Part shown: one piece after another, positions 1-17,880 of the stretch
Layout: each line of letters begins with the position of its first letter
How positions within the stretch are numbered: the stretch's first letter is position 1
Assembly (NCBI GenBank): GCA_029262415.1
Contig: JAJCZL010000007.1
Coordinates: 1 to 64,000, forward strand
Direction of reading: 5' to 3'
Source of the DNA: Deltaproteobacteria bacterium
Lineage (GTDB): Bacteria > Desulfobacterota > Binatia > UBA1149 > JAJCZL01
Length of the DNA stretch: 64,000 bases
Program-made: the position numbers and the translations under genes
Notes under the pieces: model-generated
Databases searched by the model: none
The model's input: the letters and a program-made list of their open reading frames with translations, nothing else
What the model was told of the DNA's origin: nothing

Positions 1-3000
1 ATGACGGCAATCTAACCAGTGGTGACGGCTGCGACTCAAATTGCACGGCGACGGCTTGCGGCAACGGTGTTATCACTGCGCCCGAGGCTTGCGACGACGG
101 CAATCTGATCAGTGGCGACGGCTGCGACTCAAATTGCACGGCGACGGCTTGCGGCAACGGTGTTATCACTGCGCCTGAGGCTTGCGACGACGGCAATCTA
201 ACCGACGGTGATGGCTGCGACGGCAACTGCACGGTGACGGCCTGCGGCAACGGTGTTACCACCGCGCCCGAGGCTTGTGATGACGGCAATCTGATCAGTG
301 GCGACGGTTGCAGCGATCTGTGTGTGAGCGAGTTCTGCGGCGACGGCGTTGTCAATAACAATGAAGACTGCGAGCCGGCCGGTACCGCAACCTGCACGGC
401 CGGTTGTACGACTCGGGTCGCCGACGATCTTACCCAACTCGGCACCCCGATTGCCCTGGTGACCGCGCCCGATGGCAGCGGCAGCAAAACGCTCGCGGTG
501 ATCCACGACGGCGACAAGCCGCCGGTGGGCAACGCCGACTCCCTGCGTCAGTATGATACCTATGACGGCGTGGGCGCGGCCGGCGAAGACTGGATCGGCT
601 ACCAGTACCTCGGCCTACAGACCTTCAGGTCGGTGGTTTTCCAGGAAGGCAAGCACTTCGGCGACGGCGGCTGGTTCGACATATTGACGGTGCAGGTGCG
701 CCAGGCAGGTGTTTGGAACGACGTAAGCGCACTTGTCAGCACGCCCGTTTACCCGGCGGCCAACAACGGAGCGAGCTACGAGACCTACGCGCTCGATTTC
801 CAAGCGATCATCGGCGACGGCATCCGTATCTACGGTGTGCCCGGGGGCGGCTCCTATTTCGTCTCGGTGGGTGAACTCGAAGTGTTCGGAATAACCCATG
901 TGTGCGGCGATGCGGTATTCACCGCGCCCGAGCAATGCGACGACGGCAATCTTCTGGCCGACGACGGTTGCGGGCCCACGTGCCTGGTCGAGTTCTGTGG
1001 TGACGGCATCGTTAACAACGGCACCGAGACCTGCGACGACGGCGGCGAGTCGCCGGCCTGCGACGCCGATTGCACCATCCCTGCCTGCGGCGACGGTATC
1101 GTAAACACGGCGGCCGGCGAGAGTTGTGACCCGCCCAACACCGATACTTGCGCCGCTGCTTGTACCGACCGCGTACCGCTCTGCAGCGACGGCTTCGTCA
1201 CACCACCCGAGACCTGCGACGACGGCAACCTCATCGACGGTGATGGATGCGACGGCAACTGTACGATTACGGCTTGCGGCAACGGGATAGTCACCGCTCC
1301 CGAACAGTGCGACGACGGCAATCCCATCGATAACGACGCCTGTGACCTGAGTTGTCAGATCACACCTTGCGGCAATGGCGTGCTCGACCCCGGAGAGGCC
1401 TGCGACGACGGCAACCAGATCGAAGGCGACGGCTGCGATTCGAATTGCACGCTGACTGCTTGCGGTAACGTGATCGTGAGCCCCGCCGAGCAGTGCGACG
1501 ACGGCAATCTCATTGATGGTGACGGTTGCGACAGCAACTGCACAGCGACCGGCTGCGGCAACGGCATCCTTACCGCCGGCGAAGCATGCGAGGACGGCAA
1601 TACTTCGAACAACGACGCGTGCCTGGACGACTGCACGCCGGCCTCCTGCGGCGACGGTTTCGTCTTTAGCGGCGTCGAGGAGTGCGACGACGGTGCGGCC
1701 AACAATGACGTGACACCTGACGCCTGCCGCACCGACTGCAGTCTAGCGTTCTGCGGCGACGGCGTGCTCGATAGCGGCGAGGCGTGCGAACCCGCTGGTA
1801 CCGCCAACTGCGGATTCGACTGTATAGTTCCGGCGGGCATCAGCTTACCCCCGGGCTTCCAAGACAGCGTCGTGTTTAGCGGCTTGACCCTGCCTACGGC
1901 AGCACGCTTCGCGCCGGACGGCCGTATTTTTATCGCCGAGAAGAGCGGCATCATCAAAGTATTCGACGATATCAACGATCCCTCGCCCGATATCTTCGCC
2001 GACCTGCGAACCAACGTGCACAACTTTGGCGATCGTGGACTGCTGGGTCTCGCGCTGCATCCGAGCTTCCCGGCCGAACCTTACGTGTTTGTTCTCTACA
2101 CCTACGATGCCGAGCCCGGCGGCACGGCGCCCCGGTGGGGACAGCCGGGACAGACCTTTGATCAGTGTCCCGACCCGCCCGGGGGTCAGGACGGTTGCGT
2201 CGTGCAGGGACGCTTGTCGCGTCTCGAGGCATTCGGCAATGCGGCGATCGGTGCCGAACAGGTCATGATCGAGAACTGGTGTCAGCAGTTCCTCTCCCAT
2301 TCGGTGGGTGACCTCGCTTTCGGTAGTGACGGGGCTTTGTACGTCAGTGCCGGCGAAGGTGCCGGCTTCACTTTCAGCGACTACGGTCAGCGGGGTTACC
2401 CGTGGTTGAATCCCTGCAACGATCCGCCGGGCGGCGTCGGCGGAATCCAGACACCACCGACAGCGGAGGGCGGATCGCTGCGCAGTCAAGATCTGCGCAC
2501 GACGGGTGACCCTACCGGCTATTCGGGGACGCTTCTGCGCGTGAATCCCAATGATGATGTCATCGGGCTGGGAGAGGCGTTGCCAGATAATCCGTTGTAC
2601 GGAGGCGTGTTCAGCGACGACGACCGCATCATCGCCTACGGGTTGCGCAATCCGTTCCGGATCACCGTCAAGCCCGACGGCAGCGATGAGATCTGGATTG
2701 CCAATTGCGGAGCTAACAAGTACGAGTCAGTCTATCGCGTAGCCGATCCAACCGACGGTGTGATTGAAAACTTCGGCTGGCCTTGCTTCGATGGGCCTTT
2801 GCCCCACAGCCCTTTCCAGAACTTCGGCCTGTCTCTCTGCGACAGTCTGTACGCGGATCCCACCGCGCGCACGCCGCCTGCCTTCTCCTATAGCCACGCC
2901 GAGCAGGTGGTCCCCGGAGAGATCTGCGGCTCCGGTTCGGCCACCTGCGTTGCCGGCGTGGGATTTTATGAGACCGGTAACTATCCTAGTGAGTACCAAG

Positions 3001-5372
3001 GGGCACTTCTCGTCGCCGATTATTCGCGCGACTGCATGTGGACGATATTCGCCGACGGAACCGGGACGCCGGACGTAACGACCGTGCAGACTTTCGTTGC
3101 GCGTGCACCACGGCCCGTCGATATTCAGAACGGCCCCAACGGCGACATCTTCTATGTGTCGCTTACCGGCTCGGTTCATCGGATTACTTACTCGCCCGGC
3201 AATCAGCCGCCGGTTGCGGCGGTCTCCGTTGACGTGAGCAGCGGCAGGGCGCCACTCACGGTGCAGTTCGATGCCTCGGGATCTGCGGATGCCGACGTCG
3301 GCGACGTGTTGACCTACAGTTGGGATCTCGACGGTGACGGTTTCTACGATGATGCAAGCGGTATCACCGCTTCGTTCAGCTACGGCACCCCGGGCAGTTA
3401 CTCGGCCGGTGTCCTCGTAGACGACGGCAGCGGCGGCGCTGATACCGCGCATACTCTTATCATCGTGGGTTCCGTACCGCCGACCTCCTGTGCGGTGGAC
3501 GGCGATTGCGACGATGCCTTGTTCTGCAACGGCGTAGAGGTCTGTGCGGCGGGAACCTGCAACGATGGAACCCTGGCCTGTCCAGGCACGGCTTGCGATG
3601 AAGCCAACATGTTGTGCTTAGCCGGCGATCCGATACGCGGCGGGCTCTTGTGGGATAAATGGTGGGGTGAGAATGGGGCTGTCACGCCGACGGGAACGCA
3701 TCCCTTGTACCCGCTGGGCGGGGTGCAATCGGGTTCCACGACCTTCCGGTGCAAGGAATGCCACGGTTGGGATTACAAAGGCTCGGCCGGCGCGTACGGG
3801 GCAGGTTCTCACTTTACGGGGATCGCCGGCGTGCTCGGATCGACGATGAGCGCGGAGGCGATGTTCGAGTTGATAAAGACCGACACCGTCACCAATGGAC
3901 ACGGCTTCGCAACCTACGGCTTGAACGACCAAGACATCGCCGACCTGGTGAATTTCCTGCAAAACCTGCTGATTGACGACTCCGCCTTCATTGACCCAGT
4001 CGGCGTATTTCTCGGCGATCCGATACAAGGTCAGATTAACTACTCCACGGTTGGCGAGCCCCTGTGCACCCAGTGCCACGGCGCCGACGGTACGGCCATA
4101 AACTTCGGGACACCGTCGTCGCCGGAATATGTCGGTACGGTCGCCGTGCAGAATCCGTGGGAGCTGTTGCACAAGATTCGATTTGGACAACCGGGCACAG
4201 GCATGCCGAGTTGGACCGCCAGCGGCGGGAGCGACCAAGGCGCAGCCGACATCGGCAGCTACGCCCAGCAAATCCTCTACGTGCCCGGCAACCAACCGCC
4301 GGTCGCGGCGGTCGCTGTCGACGCGAGCAGCGGAAGAGCGCCGCTGGCGGTTTTGTTCGACGCCTCGGCGTCTACGGATCTGGATGCCGGCGACGTGTTG
4401 ACCTACAGCTGGGATCTCGACGGCGACGGTTTCTACGATGATGCAAGCGGTATCACCGCTTCGTTCACCTATACCACTGCGGGGAGCTACTCGCCGGGTG
4501 TTTTTGTAGACGACGGCAACGGCGGTAGCGATGCGGCGCACCTGCTGATCGTCGTCGGCGTGCTTCCGCCGGTAAATTGTACGGTGGACGGCGATTGCGG
4601 AGACACGTTGTTCTGCAACGGTGTCGAGTTCTGTGCGGCGGGAACGTGCAACGACGGAGCCATCGCCTGTCCGGGCGAGGCTTGCGACGAAGGCAACATG
4701 GTGTGCCTAGCCGGCGATCCTATACTCGGCGGGCTCTTGTGGGATAGCTGGTGGGGTGTGAATGGCGCTCTCGCGCCGACGGGAACCCACCCGCTGTATC
4801 CGCTGGGCGGGGTGCAATCGGGTTCCACGACCTTCCGGTGCAAGGAATGCCACGGTTGGGATTACAAAGGCTCGGCCGGCGCGTACGGGGGAGGTTCTCA
4901 CTTTACGGGGATCGCCGGCGTGCTCGGATCGACGATGAGCGCGGAGGCGATGTTCGAGTTGATAAAGACCGACACCGTCACCAATGGACACGGCTTCGGA
5001 ACCTACGGACTGAACGACCAAGACATCGCCGACCTGGTGAATTTCCTGCAGAACCTGTTGATCGACGACTCCCCCTTCATCGACCCAGCCGGTATATTCC
5101 TAGGTGATCCTATCCAGGGCCAGACCAACTACACACTGGTCGGCGTGCCGACGTGCCTCCAGTGCCACGGCGCCGATGGTACGGCCATAAACTTCGGGAC
5201 ACCGTCGTCGCCGGAATATGTCGGTACGGTCGCCGTGCAGAATCCGTGGGAGCTGATGCACAAGATTCGTTTCGGCCACCCTGGTTCATCAATGCCGAGT
5301 TGGGTGGCCGACGGCGGGAGCGACCAGGGCGCGGCCGACATCGGCAGCTATGCCCAGCAGACCTTTCCCTAG
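1..5372 (+). CDS. Giant modular secreted protein, 5'-truncated: Cys-rich repeats, sorbosone-dehydrogenase-like propeller, PKD and cytochrome c modules
   Basis: The frame is open from base 3 with no stop, so the true start lies upstream; the first in-frame ATG at 234 is internal. Order seen: DUF4215-like Cys-rich repeats (to about 420); a discoidin-like beta domain (about 430-890); more Cys-rich repeats (900-1840); a glucose/sorbosone-dehydrogenase-like propeller (about 1845-3185); then two copies of PKD domain, short Cys-rich segment and two small cytochrome c domains. Four CXXCH haem motifs lie at 3750, 4065, 4839 and 5154. Established: such propellers oxidise sugars or alcohols, usually with PQQ, and c-type haems are attached in the periplasm. 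Inference: a periplasmic or cell-surface dehydrogenase that passes electrons to its own haems. Signal peptide and anchoring are not visible. Confidence 0.85.
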   Translation, partial: DGNLTSGDGCDSNCTATACGNGVITAPEACDDGNLISGDGCDSNCTATACGNGVITAPEACDDGNLTDGDGCDGNCTVTACGNGVTTAPEACDDGNLISGDGCSDLCVSEFCGDGVVNNNEDCEPAGTATCTAGCTTRVADDLTQLGTPIALVTAPDGSGSKTLAVIHDGDKPPVGNADSLRQYDTYDGVGAAGEDWIGYQYLGLQTFRSVVFQEGKHFGDGGWFDILTVQVRQAGVWNDVSALVSTPVYPAANNGASYETYALDFQAIIGDGIRIYGVPGGGSYFVSVGELEVFGITHVCGDAVFTAPEQCDDGNLLADDGCGPTCLVEFCGDGIVNNGTETCDDGGESPACDADCTIPACGDGIVNTAAGESCDPPNTDTCAAACTDRVPLCSDGFVTPPETCDDGNLIDGDGCDGNCTITACGNGIVTAPEQCDDGNPIDNDACDLSCQITPCGNGVLDPGEACDDGNQIEGDGCDSNCTLTACGNVIVSPAEQCDDGNLIDGDGCDSNCTATGCGNGILTAGEACEDGNTSNNDACLDDCTPASCGDGFVFSGVEECDDGAANNDVTPDACRTDCSLAFCGDGVLDSGEACEPAGTANCGFDCIVPAGISLPPGFQDSVVFSGLTLPTAARFAPDGRIFIAEKSGIIKVFDDINDPSPDIFADLRTNVHNFGDRGLLGLALHPSFPAEPYVFVLYTYDAEPGGTAPRWGQPGQTFDQCPDPPGGQDGCVVQGRLSRLEAFGNAAIGAEQVMIENWCQQFLSHSVGDLAFGSDGALYVSAGEGAGFTFSDYGQRGYPWLNPCNDPPGGVGGIQTPPTAEGGSLRSQDLRTTGDPTGYSGTLLRVNPNDDVIGLGEALPDNPLYGGVFSDDDRIIAYGLRNPFRITVKPDGSDEIWIANCGANKYESVYRVADPTDGVIENFGWPCFDGPLPHSPFQNFGLSLCDSLYADPTARTPPAFSYSHAEQVVPGEICGSGSATCVAGVGFYETGNYPSEYQGALLVADYSRDCMWTIFADGTGTPDVTTVQTFVARAPRPVDIQNGPNGDIFYVSLTGSVHRITYSPGNQPPVAAVSVDVSSGRAPLTVQFDASGSADADVGDVLTYSWDLDGDGFYDDASGITASFSYGTPGSYSAGVLVDDGSGGADTAHTLIIVGSVPPTSCAVDGDCDDALFCNGVEVCAAGTCNDGTLACPGTACDEANMLCLAGDPIRGGLLWDKWWGENGAVTPTGTHPLYPLGGVQSGSTTFRCKECHGWDYKGSAGAYGAGSHFTGIAGVLGSTMSAEAMFELIKTDTVTNGHGFATYGLNDQDIADLVNFLQNLLIDDSAFIDPVGVFLGDPIQGQINYSTVGEPLCTQCHGADGTAINFGTPSSPEYVGTVAVQNPWELLHKIRFGQPGTGMPSWTASGGSDQGAADIGSYAQQILYVPGNQPPVAAVAVDASSGRAPLAVLFDASASTDLDAGDVLTYSWDLDGDGFYDDASGITASFTYTTAGSYSPGVFVDDGNGGSDAAHLLIVVGVLPPVNCTVDGDCGDTLFCNGVEFCAAGTCNDGAIACPGEACDEGNMVCLAGDPILGGLLWDSWWGVNGALAPTGTHPLYPLGGVQSGSTTFRCKECHGWDYKGSAGAYGGGSHFTGIAGVLGSTMSAEAMFELIKTDTVTNGHGFGTYGLNDQDIADLVNFLQNLLIDDSPFIDPAGIFLGDPIQGQTNYTLVGVPTCLQCHGADGTAINFGTPSSPEYVGTVAVQNPWELMHKIRFGHPGSSMPSWVADGGSDQGAADIGSYAQQTFP
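3..330 (+). repeat. 93-bp tandem repeats encoding Cys-rich 31-residue units
   Basis: The motif encoding ACDDGN recurs at positions 87, 180 and 273, an exact 93-bp (31-residue) period, with adjacent copies almost identical at DNA level. Each unit carries CGNG, ACDDGN and GDGCD-type segments with conserved cysteines, as in DUF4215/myxococcal Cys-rich repeats. Diverged copies continue at 900-1840. The near-identity at the window edge implies recent expansion, so the copy number upstream is unknown. Confidence 0.9.
3193..5371 (+). repeat. Internal tandem duplication of a 1.09-kb PKD/Cys-rich/cytochrome c module
   Basis: Unit A (about 3193-4281) and unit B (about 4282-5371) each encode a PKD domain, a short Cys-rich stretch and two CXXCH domains. 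Long stretches are almost identical, for example 3720-3920 against 4809-5009, while the ends have diverged. This indicates duplication followed by partial gene conversion. A third, mosaic fragment of the same module end lies at 17598-17775. Confidence 0.9.
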
Positions 5373-5434
5373 CTCCGCACTCGCCACGGGCAATCAGGTG
5401 AAGGTTACGGCGGGATCGCTCGTGTAGGGACTTC

Positions 5435-7507
5435 TTAGTTCGAGAGGACGCAGCGAACAGCATTATTACCTTTTTCGACACAGTCGAAAATGCTCCGCAG
5501 CAAGTCACCGCCAAACTGCAGGTCCAACCGCACCGCGCCAACGCCGACATCGATCAACCCGGGCGCGCGCGCTCTTAGCCGGAAACGATAACTCACCCCT
5601 TTGCGCTGCCGAAGCGATGCGCGAGAGATCGAATCCAACGATGCGCTTTTGTCCTTGTACTTGAAGCGGGTTTTGGTCGGCGTTGAGACGTTCTGCATCA
5701 CCCCGTCGAGCAGCCCCGAATAAAGGAGTGTGTCGTTCTGGAAAACTCCAAGCGTCACCGATTCGGTGTCCGCGTGTATCTCGACTCCGGGCGGGAGGTC
5801 GAAATCAACCTTCAGCGTCATCCGATCGACGGTTTGTCCAGCCGACATGCGGACACGGAGATTGACTCTGTCCAGCGGCGGGACAGAGCCCGGGCCGCCA
5901 CCCGCGGGCAGCTGACACTCGCCACAACCTTCAGCCAGGGGATCCTCGATACAGTCACCGTTACAGCAAGCGCCGAAACCGACGCCGCCGTCATCCACCT
6001 GTGAGGGATTGATCATCCCTAAGCAGTTGTCGTCACATCCCGCACCGCCGTCGGGCGTGGTGCACGGTCGGTCACCGACGATCCCGCTACCGTTGCCGTC
6101 GTCGAACACGCCGTCACCGTCCTCATCGAGCGCCGATCCGGCAACGACCAGGGTCTGCCATACCACCTTGCCGTTTAGCAGGACGTCGACACGCCCTTCG
6201 CCGCTGAGCCCGGTGTCGTTGAGCACCACCGAGGTTCCGACGGCACCGATAAGCGCAAGCGTCTCCGTGGTCTGGTCTCCGTCGGCGTTGGGTGAGACGA
6301 TCCGCACTGCACCGTGTGCACGCAGTTCTACGCTCAGGCCCTGCACATCGGTGTCGGCGACGTTGCCGAGAATGTCCACCGGCAGTAGACGCAACGGGTG
6401 CGTCGTGCTGGTGCCGTCAACAGGAATGACAACGTAGGAGACGGGGATCACGAGAACCCGCGACGCGCCGTCGCTACTCGGCGCCGGACGAATGCGCACC
6501 CGAGCTGAAGCGCGGAATGACGCCGCATCGATTTCACTGAACAGGCGGACACTAGCAGCCGGGCCACTCACGACGATGAGTTGATCGGTTGTCGGTTCGC
6601 TGCCGTCGGTCGCGACCGCGAACGCTTCGAGTAGCCCGGGGGTCGCCGGATCTGGAGCGAAGTTGTTCTCAGGCTCAAACTTGATCTTGCTCGTAAGCTC
6701 AGGGTCCGGCGGCGGCGCTCCGCCGTTGCCGACTACACGGTTAGGATCCAACGGAGGAAAAAACGGCCACTTGGTAAAAATCGGCGTGCCGTCGATAAAA
6801 AGGATCTGCGAGTCGTTGCCGGTATAGGCGCCTGCACTCAACGACACCGCGAGACCGCCGATGCTGGCAGGCGCGGCGATCTGTATGCCGAGGGTTCCGT
6901 GGCCACGACCTCCGGCGAGCACACCCACCTGACGCCCCAGATACGCGTTGGCTTCCTGCAGCTCGACGCTGTTGTCCGTACTGCCATCTGTGTTGGTCGG
7001 CCCGATAATGCCGTCGCCGTCGAGATCGCCGAACGCGAAGACGACGAGCCCGCGATTGTCGAGACCGCTGTCGTCGATGACGTTGCCGTAGGGTGGGTTG
7101 GCCGCGCCGTCACTAACCAGCACGGTGAAACCGGCCTCCGCAAACGAACCGCTCGAACCACCGCCCGCCTGCAGGACCGTGATCGAAGGACCACCGGCCG
7201 CACCCGATGGCGCAGGAATGCTCACTGCGGTCACTGTCCCGACACGCACAGCGAGATCAATGTCACCCGTGAAGCCCGGATCGACGGTATCGTCTCCGGT
7301 GTTCCACCTGTCATCGTCACCGTCGAGCACCAACGGCAAACCCGGCATCATCGGGTGAGGTAAACCAGTGCCTGCGTCGATTGGATCGCCGGCGAAAACA
7401 TCGGCACGCGCAAAAACCGGCATGGCCAGAACGACCACAGCCGCGAGTGTCGCACCGAGCACCACAGGGCCGGTCAAACCCAAGATCACGGCCCGCAACG
7501 ACTTCAC
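5435..7507 (-). CDS. Large secreted protein with type-3-like Ca-binding segment and KYKDK-type C-terminal domain
   Basis: 690 aa from a GTG start whose bases overlap the stop of the upstream gene (GTGA), which suggests translational coupling. The N-terminus is a signal peptide ending near FARADV. The middle looks beta-rich. A segment with DEDGDGVFDDG followed by a Cys cluster (about residues 460-530) resembles thrombospondin type-3-like Ca2+-binding repeats. The last 140 residues form a beta-rich domain with the motif RFKYKDK, also seen as WKYKDK in the protein at 15087-17591. No catalytic motif was recognised, so the function is unknown. It is the second gene of an operon that I infer is read from a sigma-54 promoter at 8081-8099. 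Confidence 0.8.
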   Translation of the reverse strand: MKSLRAVILGLTGPVVLGATLAAVVVLAMPVFARADVFAGDPIDAGTGLPHPMMPGLPLVLDGDDDRWNTGDDTVDPGFTGDIDLAVRVGTVTAVSIPAPSGAAGGPSITVLQAGGGSSGSFAEAGFTVLVSDGAANPPYGNVIDDSGLDNRGLVVFAFGDLDGDGIIGPTNTDGSTDNSVELQEANAYLGRQVGVLAGGRGHGTLGIQIAAPASIGGLAVSLSAGAYTGNDSQILFIDGTPIFTKWPFFPPLDPNRVVGNGGAPPPDPELTSKIKFEPENNFAPDPATPGLLEAFAVATDGSEPTTDQLIVVSGPAASVRLFSEIDAASFRASARVRIRPAPSSDGASRVLVIPVSYVVIPVDGTSTTHPLRLLPVDILGNVADTDVQGLSVELRAHGAVRIVSPNADGDQTTETLALIGAVGTSVVLNDTGLSGEGRVDVLLNGKVVWQTLVVAGSALDEDGDGVFDDGNGSGIVGDRPCTTPDGGAGCDDNCLGMINPSQVDDGGVGFGACCNGDCIEDPLAEGCGECQLPAGGGPGSVPPLDRVNLRVRMSAGQTVDRMTLKVDFDLPPGVEIHADTESVTLGVFQNDTLLYSGLLDGVMQNVSTPTKTRFKYKDKSASLDSISRASLRQRKGVSYRFRLRARAPGLIDVGVGAVRLDLQFGGDLLRSIFDCVEKGNNAVRCVLSN

Positions 7508-15086: not shown

Positions 15087-17591
15087 ATGAGATCTTTAGT
15101 AGCGCAACGCTTCTTGGCCTGTTTCGCCGCTGCGTCGCTGGTGGGTCTCATGGCCGGCAAAGCCGAAGCGGTCATCCTTGCAGGATCGGCTACCGACGTT
15201 TGTTCGTCGGTAGCCGATCCCTGCGTGGTGGTCGACACGGTTCAGGTAATCAGTGGTTCGGTTTTGGATTTCGGTCTGCGCGCGCTTGAGGTCGGGGTCG
15301 GAGGTCAGTTCGATTTCGCCGACGGTTTCGGCTCGATTCTGTGCGGATCCTTTACCGCAACTTCAGTAACTTCGACCGCCATCGGTCTCCGCGCTACAGG
15401 CGGCACCGCCGGCGGCAGCGCAATCATCGAAGCGCGCGGATCTTGTTCGGGCGACCCTGCGCGTCCTTGCCTGATCGACACCGAATGCAGTGTGGTGTCG
15501 GCGGGCGTGTGTTCGGGGGGGAACGGCACGATATCTCTTGTCGGCAAAATCTCAGGAAATGCGCAGACGCCGGCTGATCTGACGCTACGCGCTGCCGGCA
15601 ATGTCAGCATCAGCGGACCGGTGGATCTTGACGGCACTATATCAACCGCCGGGGGCGGAACCTTGGTGGTCATCTCGACGCGCGGCAACGTGGTGATAGA
15701 CGGCGACCTGAATGCCCAAGGCGGAGGGCTGGACTCGGGCGGTGTTGTTTCGCTCGACGCCGGTGGCGATATCGTCTTGCGCGGTGCCATGGATTTGCGA
15801 GGGGGAGACTTCGACGGCGGTGTTTTCGCGGCTACCGCTGCGGGTGAACTACGCGTCGAGAACGATATTTTATTAGATGCCAAGGCCGGCGAAGGATTCG
15901 GCGGCGACTTGGCGTTGGTCGCGGGTGGAAACCTCACCGTCACGGGCGGAACCTCGGCCAGCCCGATCCTTCTACGCGCCAATGGCAGTACCAGCATCGA
16001 CAACTTCGGCGGTGACGGTGGTTACCACCTGCTGTCGGCCGGCGCTACGTTGTCTCTCGGCGCGTTCGTCAAGGTGATAGCAAACGGTGCGTTGCCCGAT
16101 GGCAGTGGCGGCGATATCGACATTGCCGCAGCGACCGTTTCGATCGACGGCGTCGTTGAATCACGCGGAAACGGCGGTTTTGCAGGCGGGGGGGTGATCG
16201 ACGTCTTTGCGGGCGCGATAGCGGTTTCTTCGAGCGGCCGTATCGACGCGGGAAGCGCAAGTGGTGACGGCGGCGATATTTCTTTGCTCTCGGACGGTGA
16301 CATCCTTATCGCCAGTCTCATCGATGCGGCCGGCGGCGGTGGGGCTGCGGCCGGCTCGGTGCTGGTTGACGGCGCGGCTACGGTGACCATCCAGGGGACG
16401 GTTGCAACCGACGGGGCCACGAGTCTCGGCAACAACATCAGAGTAAGCGGTTGCTCGCTACTGGTCGCCTCCGGCGGCCTGATCGACAATAGCTCGACCG
16501 GCGGCGGTAACACTCTGGTTGGGCGCGGCTTCGTAACGATAGCGGCCGGGGCGCAAGTTCTTGCCGATACCGTCAGTGGATTGAACTCGATCGTTTACGG
16601 TAATCCCGCATTTCCTCCTTCACTAAATGGGACGGTTTCTCCGAGTCCGACCGCGGTGTTCGACGACACGCTCCCTAGCTGTGCGGCCTGCTCGGTGGCG
16701 GCTGATTGCGACGATTCTAACCCCTGCACCGACGACAGCTGCGATCTCGCCGGTGGTTGCATGAACATCGCCAACGCCAACGCCTGCGATGACGGCAATC
16801 CGTGCACCACCGACGATGTGTGCGCTGCCGGCCAATGCACTGGACAGGTGCCGGCAGCTTGTAACGACGGTAACCTTTGTACCGACGATAGCTGTTTGTT
16901 CGACGGCACCTGTGTGAACACCCCGAACATGGCGCCCTGTGACGACGGCACGACCTGCACCACCGGCGACGTTTGCACGGCCGGTGTATGCGTCGGGCAG
17001 GCCCCCGCGATTTGCGACGATGCCGATCCCTGCACGCGCGACACTTGCGACGATGTCAGCGGATGCGTCAACACCCCGGGACCCGTCCCGACTTGTCTAC
17101 TGGCCCCTCGCGCACGCCTCCAGATCAATAACCGCACCGGTGCAAGCAAGGATCGTTTGAAGTGGAAATGGGACAAGGGCGCGGCCTTTGCGGCTGCGGA
17201 TGCCGGCACTCCGGATGCGACGACTGGCTATACGATGTGTATCTATGACACCTCGGCGTCGGTCAGCTCGATTGCCGCGCGACTCGACGTCGCTGCCGGG
17301 GGATCCTGGACGCAGAAAGGCCGCAAGTGGAAATACAAGGACAAGGCCGGCACCTCTTCGGGCGTAGACAAGATGGAGATCCGTTTCGGTGCTTTGGGCA
17401 AAACCAAACTGCGTTTATCGGCCAAGGGCGTGAACCTGCCAATGCCGACGCCGGTGGCGAGCGACCGCTTGTTCTCGCAGGATCCGACCGTCAGCGTGCA
17501 GCTGATCAACAGTGAAGGAACCTGTTGGTCGGCGGGCTTCGCCAGTGCACAGACCAACGACGCCGATCGCTTCAAAGCCCGGGTTCCTTAG
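15087..17591 (+). CDS. Large exported adhesin-like protein: beta-helix repeats, Cys-rich repeats, KYKDK-type C-terminal domain
   Basis: 834 aa with AGGAG about 10 bp upstream of the ATG and a signal peptide ending near KAEA. Residues 30-530 are Gly- and Ala-rich repeats (GGDIVL, GGNLTV), resembling filamentous-haemagglutinin-type beta-helices. Residues 530-670 hold Cys-rich units built on CDDGNPCTTDD and CTDDSC. The C-terminal 165 residues are beta-rich and contain WKYKDK, which resembles the C-terminus of the 690-aa secreted protein at 5435. It is likely a cell-surface or extracellular structural protein. No partner secretion gene is visible. Confidence 0.8.
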   Translation: MRSLVAQRFLACFAAASLVGLMAGKAEAVILAGSATDVCSSVADPCVVVDTVQVISGSVLDFGLRALEVGVGGQFDFADGFGSILCGSFTATSVTSTAIGLRATGGTAGGSAIIEARGSCSGDPARPCLIDTECSVVSAGVCSGGNGTISLVGKISGNAQTPADLTLRAAGNVSISGPVDLDGTISTAGGGTLVVISTRGNVVIDGDLNAQGGGLDSGGVVSLDAGGDIVLRGAMDLRGGDFDGGVFAATAAGELRVENDILLDAKAGEGFGGDLALVAGGNLTVTGGTSASPILLRANGSTSIDNFGGDGGYHLLSAGATLSLGAFVKVIANGALPDGSGGDIDIAAATVSIDGVVESRGNGGFAGGGVIDVFAGAIAVSSSGRIDAGSASGDGGDISLLSDGDILIASLIDAAGGGGAAAGSVLVDGAATVTIQGTVATDGATSLGNNIRVSGCSLLVASGGLIDNSSTGGGNTLVGRGFVTIAAGAQVLADTVSGLNSIVYGNPAFPPSLNGTVSPSPTAVFDDTLPSCAACSVAADCDDSNPCTDDSCDLAGGCMNIANANACDDGNPCTTDDVCAAGQCTGQVPAACNDGNLCTDDSCLFDGTCVNTPNMAPCDDGTTCTTGDVCTAGVCVGQAPAICDDADPCTRDTCDDVSGCVNTPGPVPTCLLAPRARLQINNRTGASKDRLKWKWDKGAAFAAADAGTPDATTGYTMCIYDTSASVSSIAARLDVAAGGSWTQKGRKWKYKDKAGTSSGVDKMEIRFGALGKTKLRLSAKGVNLPMPTPVASDRLFSQDPTVSVQLINSEGTCWSAGFASAQTNDADRFKARVP

Positions 17592-17597
17592 AGGCGG

Positions 17598-17775
17598 ACA
17601 CCGTCGTCGCCGGAATATGTTGGTACGGTCGCCGTGCAGAATCCGTGGGAGCTGATGCACAAGATTCGATTTGGACACCCGGGCACAGGCATGCCGAGTT
17701 GGACCGCCGACGGCGGCAGCGACCAAGGCGCGGCCGACATCGGCATCTATGCCCAGCAGACCTTCCCCTAGCTCT
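17598..17775 (+). pseudogene. Orphan 3' fragment of the cytochrome c module of the first gene
   Basis: Starting 7 bp after the stop of the adhesin-like gene, about 178 bp are nearly identical to the last part of the giant gene (compare 5197-5375), including its stop codon and a few bases beyond. It has no start codon or CXXCH. Single-base differences make it a mosaic: GAGCTGATGCAC matches unit B, whereas GGCACAGGCATGCC matches unit A. It is a relic of a third module copy or of recombination between related genes. Confidence 0.85.
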
Positions 17776-17880
17776 GCGAACTGTCCGGCCGACGGTTGAG
17801 GCTTACGACTACAGAAGATAGTGTCGATGGGTCTTGATGTTGCTGTCGCCGAGCCCGGGCAGCGTGGAGGAGACAAATCG

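Follow-up and report, generated by a model that had tools for sequence, protein, structure and literature searches.

Is the protein encoded at the start of this locus a sugar dehydrogenase that depends on pyrroloquinoline quinone (PQQ), or something else built on the same fold? The locus is a 64,000-nucleotide stretch (hereafter the window) of contig JAJCZL010000007.1 (C7) in assembly GCA_029262415.1, a Deltaproteobacteria bacterium of the class Binatia, and its first open reading frame joins a GSDH propeller, the fold of soluble PQQ glucose dehydrogenase, to four CXXCH haem motifs. The original prediction, made from the DNA alone, was that this chain couples substrate oxidation to four haems of its own; the follow-up bears it out in part, in that a propeller fold and four c-type haem sites do occur in one polypeptide, but PQQ-dependent oxidation is in doubt. 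With a probability of about 0.5, we favour a secreted modular c-type cytochrome with a non-canonical sugar-dehydrogenase-fold head over a standard PQQ sugar dehydrogenase.

Domain layout of the open reading frame

The features of the frame are as follows.

3..5372 (+): whole open reading frame, 1789 aa; N-terminus cut by the contig edge, stop codon at 5370-5372
3..404 (+): Cys-rich acidic repeats, block 1 (DUF4215 / myxo_disulf_rpt; limits set by eye)
405..917, about (+): F5/8C-like (galactose-binding/discoidin) domain, from identity to six copies in the genome
900..1847 (+): Cys-rich acidic repeats, block 2 (DUF4215 / myxo_disulf_rpt; limits set by eye)
1848..3206, approximate (+): GSDH propeller (PF07995; PDB profile and predicted-model matches)
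2298..2300 (+): His766, equivalent of the catalytic His144 of soluble glucose dehydrogenase (alignment to 1c9u)
2646..2651 (+): Arg882-Asn883, equivalents of Arg228-Asn229 (alignment to 1c9u)
2703..2729 (+): altered Ca2+/PQQ-site loop NCGANKYES (20-row propeller alignment)
3201..3455 (+): PKD domain 1 (Pfam, residues 1067-1151)
3588..4277 (+): dihaem cytochrome c unit 1 (CXXCH at 3750-3764 and 4065-4079; predicted model with mean pLDDT 92.1)
4283..5359 (+): tandem copy of 3194-4270, from DNA identity (PKD domain 2, Cys-rich linker, dihaem unit 2)
4680..5363 (+): dihaem cytochrome c unit 2 (CXXCH at 4839-4853 and 5154-5168)

On the window protein, Pfam reported DUF4215 (8 stretches), GSDH (68 bits; gathering cut-off, 25), PKD_4 (2), Cytochrom_C (2) and Cytochrome_CBB3 (2), and NCBIfam reported myxo_disulf_rpt in 9 stretches. 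The order is Cys-rich repeats, F5/8C-like domain, more repeats, GSDH propeller and then, twice, a PKD domain, a Cys-rich stretch and a dihaem cytochrome c unit. The frame and both family collections thus bear out the predicted presence of Cys-rich repeats, propeller, two PKD domains and four CXXCH motifs in one chain.

Two features had been overlooked. The F5/8C-like domain is 54 to 60% identical to six further copies in the genome, four of which sit in the paralogue L009, which matches PF00754 (on the window protein itself, Pfam reported nothing for PF00754 at E 0.01). Another of the six lies in a 419-aa frame on contig C67. Towards its C-terminus the chain is duplicated in tandem, 3194-4270 being 86% identical in DNA to 4283-5359 over 1077 bases; the "four haems" are therefore two dihaem units parted by a PKD domain and a Cys-rich linker.

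Active-site residues of the propeller

A profile of 20 propeller relatives matched aldose dehydrogenases, soluble PQQ glucose dehydrogenase (1c9u, E 3.6e-37) and Hedgehog-interacting protein in the PDB. The predicted propeller model was of moderate confidence (mean predicted local distance difference test [pLDDT], 62.2; predicted template modelling score [pTM], 0.74), and Foldseek searches with it returned PQQ-bound 1c9u first (E 2.6e-15) and also 1cq1, 8re0 and 3a9g. The NCBIfam model TIGR03606 scored 44.6 bits on the window protein and did not reach its cut-off of 434.55.

Active-site residues were taken from the printed alignment to 1c9u, in whose numbering the key residues are His 144 and Arg-Asn 228-229; the rows of our 13-member alignment of close propeller relatives and of the 20-row alignment came from one hit set, with L038 and L033 omitted. 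The equivalents of His144, Arg228, Asn229 and Gly247 are kept in the window, in a stretch aligned to 1c9u at 122 bits. At the positions of Lys377, Arg406 and Arg408 the window has Ser, Arg and Val, in a C-terminal stretch whose alignment to 1c9u scores only 6.7 bits. In the same weakly aligned stretch Lys occurs at the 377 position in 0/20 rows and Arg at the 408 position in 0/19 rows with a residue there, and both Lys377 and Arg408 seem to be absent family-wide.

The loop corresponding to E245-E253 begins D-V/I-G and ends in Glu in the other 19 of the 20 rows; the window reads N-C-G-A...S, with Cys-Gly-Ala in place of Gln246-Gly247-Pro248 of soluble glucose dehydrogenase, and is the only row without the loop Asp, the Val/Ile and the last Glu. 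Outside the 20 rows, the loop of L055 (D-F-G...T) departs at two positions and that of L089 (D-N-G...E) at one. Compared with 12 close relatives, the window differs at 11 otherwise invariant columns, four of them within the nine-residue loop (two more departures counted by script were end gaps from alignment trimming and were excluded). It is the clustering of departures in the loop that stands out, not their total. The active-site residues on which the original prediction turned are present in part, as His144, Arg228 and Asn229 equivalents, but the loop is altered in this copy and, on the weak alignment, Lys377 and Arg408 are apparently missing. As read from the alignments, the altered loop weakens the case for a PQQ site and does not rule one out.

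PQQ biosynthesis genes

The search for PQQ biosynthesis genes that the original prediction had suggested came back negative. PqqB was matched in 0/9 genomes (the eight with the close propeller family plus G002; four of the nine are <90% complete) and in 2/2 positive controls. A PqqC match over the cut-off was found in none of the seven searched genomes carrying the propeller family, one of which (G042) gave 30 bits against a cut-off of 240; the window's own genome had no PqqC match. The same model passed its cut-off in 5/58 relatives and in 0/14 control genomes. Six genomes reached via fusion loci (two of them apparently G001 and G002) had no PqqC match either, a weak negative since the controls gave none. 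PqqE gave matches below the cut-off only and is uninformative, as its model also matches 14/14 controls. PQQ synthesis is reported in PMC8262859 for Binatota genomes with XoxF, of the orders Bin18 and Binatales, so the absence of PQQ genes here is not a phylum-wide blind spot.

Dihaem cytochrome c units

The four CXXCH motifs of the frame (at 3750, 4065, 4839 and 5154) are not a chance occurrence, because they fall where Pfam places paired cytochrome c domains. Dihaem loci were drawn from the best 80 of 583 stretches in a related-locus search and came from Binatia, Planctomycetota, Chloroflexota and others. They held 101 module copies in 81 frames (window and duplicates excluded). Of these copies, 59 span almost the whole query, and a hand-chosen 45 of the 59 were aligned with the two window copies (n = 47). 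Both Cys and the His of both haem sites are invariant in 47/47 modules, and the second haem motif is absent from all peptide patterns used to fetch the loci. In the same alignment His105, between the two CXXCH motifs, is invariant, and Met206, after the second, is kept in at least 90% of copies; these two residues are candidate sixth haem ligands. The ratio of nonsynonymous to synonymous substitution rates (dN/dS) between the dihaem parts of the two window units is 0.22, as expected under purifying selection.

On contig C63 the genome also encodes a stand-alone dihaem form that is 67% identical and, judged by eye, opens with a leader-like stretch. Genes for cytochrome c assembly are present as well, with three PF01578 matches above the cut-off. 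The dihaem unit was modelled with high confidence (mean pLDDT, 92.1). Its profile gave weak matches only among PDB sequences (CcoP, cytochrome c4); in Foldseek and VIA-align the matches, to cytochrome c6, NirS and bc1 cytochrome c subunits, fell mainly in the second half (module residues 136-230), and the first half was barely tested. By sequence, haem attachment in both dihaem units is supported.

Two side observations concern this module. A stray fragment of the 3' end of the haem gene lies at 17596..17777 (+), immediately after the end of the gene at 15087-17591; it is 94% identical to 4108-4270 and 90% identical to 5197-5378 and is a remnant either of a third unit or of recombination. Four frames from metagenome-assembled genomes labelled Phycisphaerae (L090, L091, L093 and L071) carry the same module with 19, 26 or 15 CXXCH per frame, or the module four times (8 CXXCH).

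Distribution of the fusion

At E 1e-40, 8 of the 148 genomes of the class contained the close propeller family. Among its 13 aligned members, CXXCH motifs occur in the chain in five: the window (4), L133 of G001 (7) and L134, L135 and L136 (5 each). Six complete frames have none (L009, L049, L054, L138, L139 and L141), nor does L140, which is cut at its start, and L142 is cut by a contig end where the haem would lie. The prediction that haem sites would be conserved in orthologues therefore holds for the nearest orthologue but not across the 13 relatives, of which five have CXXCH, seven lack it (one of them start-cut) and one is cut.

In the propeller tree the window and L133 are joined (94/90), as are the three five-haem forms (100/100), and the forks between are open. 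"Haem in chain" needs at least two changes on this tree, with the cut chains L142 and L140 both coded 0. L133 and L134 have homologous five-haem modules (33% over 601 columns); the one in L133 had a single marginal match in the PDB (E 0.0059). Independent origin of the fusions was considered and is not upheld, given the coding of the cut chains, the open central forks and the homology of the five-haem modules. On these alignments, one old fusion with later losses would compete with repeated gain.

The search for the domain architecture in other genomes showed that the fusion is not unique. Of 82 dihaem-module frames, taken from the best 80 of the 583 stretches, the window and C63, seven have a GSDH propeller as well. 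These are the window and its orthologue, L055 (G002, of the window's order) and the planctomycetal L082, L089, L092 and L105, so that propeller and dihaem module are united in the nearest orthologue and in five further frames. L133/L053 and L137/L055 are pairs of duplicate records, and each pair counted as one. In the G001 orthologue, too, the propeller is followed by a PKD domain and a dihaem unit. L082, L092 and L055 retain the key His and Arg-Asn; in L089 His and Asn are replaced, and L105 is cut before the His. The domain order had been put forward as one not known from characterised enzymes; open-licence literature searches, which did not find the architecture and are not proof of absence, do not contradict this, but the combination recurs in other genomes. 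The plasmid collection gave 5 records, all <60% identical and none covering 80% of the query. This chain is a variant of modular extracellular redox proteins.

Contig edge and secretion

Base 1 of the window is base 1 of contig C7, and the 5' end of the frame is open, so that the start and any signal peptide are lost. The source genome has 83 contigs (3.9 Mb; 96.8% complete), and its closest named relative is Candidatus Binatia PL23a_bin.3. Recovery of the upstream sequence, proposed as a check for a signal peptide, failed: the candidate contig ends, on C37 and C8, run out in Cys-rich repeats, and C37 showed no end overlap with the start of C7, C8 or C42. C37 more likely joins C8 than C7, because exact 60-base words are common to C37 and C8, whereas C37 and C7 share none of 20 bases or more; C7 is about 75% identical to either. 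The C37 end (L010 1-2372) and the C8 end (L011 1-2692) are near-alike Cys-rich arrays, probably halves of one giant repeat protein split by assembly.

The paralogue L009 (3422-13450 on C38) is a 3342-aa chain without haem, in which four F5/8C-like copies and Cys-rich blocks are followed by the same propeller and a PKD domain. Its N-terminus resembles a leader (by eye), and by analogy the window protein is probably secreted.

Weighing of the explanations

In the reading that we favour, the Cys-rich, F5/8C-like and PKD modules would hold the protein on the cell surface or on glycans, a surface location that we infer from the modules. The two dihaem units would pass electrons to or from an external partner, and the propeller would bind a sugar- or polymer-like ligand or work with something other than self-made PQQ. 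The second dihaem unit arose by in-frame tandem duplication. Since the PKD domain and Cys-rich linker part the two units, electrons would more likely cross each of them separately than run along one four-haem wire. A standard PQQ cofactor is disfavoured by the changes in the loop, by the apparent lack of carboxylate ligands and by the failure to find PQQ genes.

Several observations weigh against this reading. Equivalents of His144, Arg228 and Asn229 are present in 20/20 propeller rows, and their retention suggests selected chemistry. The mapping of Lys377, Arg406 and Arg408 leans on the 6.7-bit stretch of the alignment, and the window does have Arg at the Arg406 position, which the 12 close relatives do not. 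The window's total of unique departures is unexceptional (12 in L054, seven in L009 and three in the nearest orthologue, L133). The propeller is under strong constraint (dN/dS against L133, 0.13, at a dS of 1.84, near saturation). The invariance of haem site 1 is partly built in, as one locus-fetching peptide pattern contains the first motif. Scavenged PQQ can serve bacteria that have no PQQ genes of their own, Escherichia coli being the usual example. The Ca2+ ligands of the bacterial enzymes are main-chain carbonyls according to PMC6881789, so that Ca2+ could still be bound after side-chain changes in the loop, and AA12 enzymes are described there as binding PQQ although they lack Lys377.

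One alternative is a quinohaemoprotein, in which scavenged PQQ would sit in the propeller, a sugar would be oxidised and the electrons would pass to the tethered haems. It draws support from a GSDH score above the cut-off, the kept His, Arg and Asn together with the Arg at the 406 position, and the fold match to the PQQ-bound enzyme; the nearest orthologue keeps a D-V-G-W...E-E loop as well as its haem motifs, and a PQQ propeller and a cytochrome b are combined in the fungal CcPDH (PMC6881789). Yet neither PqqB nor an over-cut-off PqqC was found in the searched propeller-carrying genomes, Lys377 and Arg408 are apparently absent on the weak alignment, the loop is changed in this copy, and TIGR03606 falls far below its cut-off. 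The precedent in Teredinibacter is likewise negative: the pf08450-X173 domain pair, PQQ-dehydrogenase-like and taken from chains with c-type cytochrome domains, is reported to have bound no PQQ under the conditions tried (PMC10916295). On the loop, ligand and PQQ-gene evidence and this precedent, we rank the non-canonical head above the scavenged-PQQ quinohaemoprotein, which we regard as possible but doubtful.

A propeller serving purely in adhesion or as a scaffold, like the related fold of Hedgehog-interacting protein, with the haems alone exchanging electrons with minerals or partner cells, strikes us as improbable. That protein is among the better profile and fold matches, the window loop is changed, and 7/13 close relatives (one start-cut) have no CXXCH in the chain, so the propeller is useful without haem. 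Retention of the active-site His, Arg and Asn in every row goes beyond what a scaffold needs (L089, outside the rows, has lost His and Asn). The outer-membrane conduit looked for in following up the original prediction also failed to appear, with no MtrB/PioB porin match; the control for this search was weak (1/14, below the cut-off), and no other conduits were searched. Very unlikely, in our view, is a decaying gene or assembly chimera with a non-functional copy. A contig edge within repeats, the stray 3' fragment at 17596-17777 and the unusual substitutions would fit it, but 1789 codons are open, the duplicated haem units and the propeller both bear the mark of purifying selection, and the propeller-PKD-dihaem order is shared by the orthologue in G001.

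In a bolder reading, the "D-V-G...E-E" branch of GSDH propellers would be extracellular oxidoreductase heads with another cofactor or none, not PQQ enzymes, tethered to c-type dihaem or five-haem modules in Binatia and Planctomycetota genomes that gave no match to the PQQ genes searched for; we offer this as speculative and rather unlikely.

Neighbourhood

Among ten downstream frames Pfam identified a sigma-54 response regulator, a histidine kinase, an apolipoprotein acyltransferase, a beta-helix protein, a repeat protein and an AMP-binding enzyme; four had no match, and none of the ten points to a substrate. A KWKYKDK-like C-terminal stretch (by eye) ends several secreted-looking proteins (15087-17591; 5438-7507, minus strand; L029 6399-7670), the stand-alone dihaem cytochrome included, and is possibly a common surface-sorting domain; Pfam reported nothing for it in the proteins at 15087-17591 and 5438-7507. 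Elsewhere in the genome (L031 3657-10648, on C34), inspection by eye suggests neighbouring genes for a cytochrome b, a multihaem cytochrome c of 921 aa and a molybdopterin oxidoreductase, which resemble a respiratory complex.

Relation to known systems and significance

With the soluble PQQ glucose and aldose sugar dehydrogenases (1c9u, 3a9g, 2ism, 3das and 2g8s; PF07995) the window shares the propeller fold and the His144, Arg228, Asn229 and Gly247 equivalents. It differs from them in having Cys-Gly-Ala for Gln246-Gly247-Pro248 and in apparently lacking Lys377 and Arg408 (weak alignment), and its 1789 aa compare with 347 to 454 residues in the matched PDB dehydrogenase chains, which are not known to carry haem domains. 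The models of PVC-type haem-binding CxxCH proteins match below their cut-offs, TIGR02604 on the propeller (36.5 versus 122.2 bits) and TIGR02603 at a haem motif (18.5 versus 68.15 bits). Further comparable chains are L053 (the orthologue in Candidatus Binatia PL23a_bin.3, on the same contig as L133), L055, L082, L089, L092 and L105, which likewise combine a GSDH propeller with the same dihaem module. Each has one dihaem unit where the window has two, and L053/L133 and L055/L137 have five extra CXXCH outside it.

Coprinopsis cinerea CcPDH (AA8 cytochrome b, AA12 propeller and CBM1) likewise tethers a six-bladed quinoprotein propeller to a cytochrome, but, as described in PMC6881789, its single haem is b-type rather than c-type and on the N-terminal side, and PQQ binding was shown by crystal structure. 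Teredinibacter TERTU_2913 and TERTU_3803 and Cellvibrio Cbp2D are, like the window protein, large secreted bacterial chains with c-type haem domains (PMC10916295, PMC8981238), and the TERTU study includes a PQQ-dehydrogenase-like domain pair (PMC10916295); the families differ, being X183, X132, X122 and pf08450-X173 (PMC10916295, PMC8981238). Propeller-cytochrome fusions are thus known in fungi (b-type) and modular secreted c-type proteins in bacteria, and the present chain is a variant. According to statements in PMC10916295 and PMC8981238, a bacterial analogue of the fungal dehydrogenase-cytochrome enzymes has not been identified, and the chain would bear on whether bacteria possess one.

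Annotation commonly labels proteins with this fold as PQQ-dependent sugar dehydrogenases. With propeller and haem exits in one chain, and in genomes in which PQQ synthesis was not detected, the cofactor question becomes directly testable, and the value of the protein lies in testing what a large group of "PQQ-dependent" propellers really uses.

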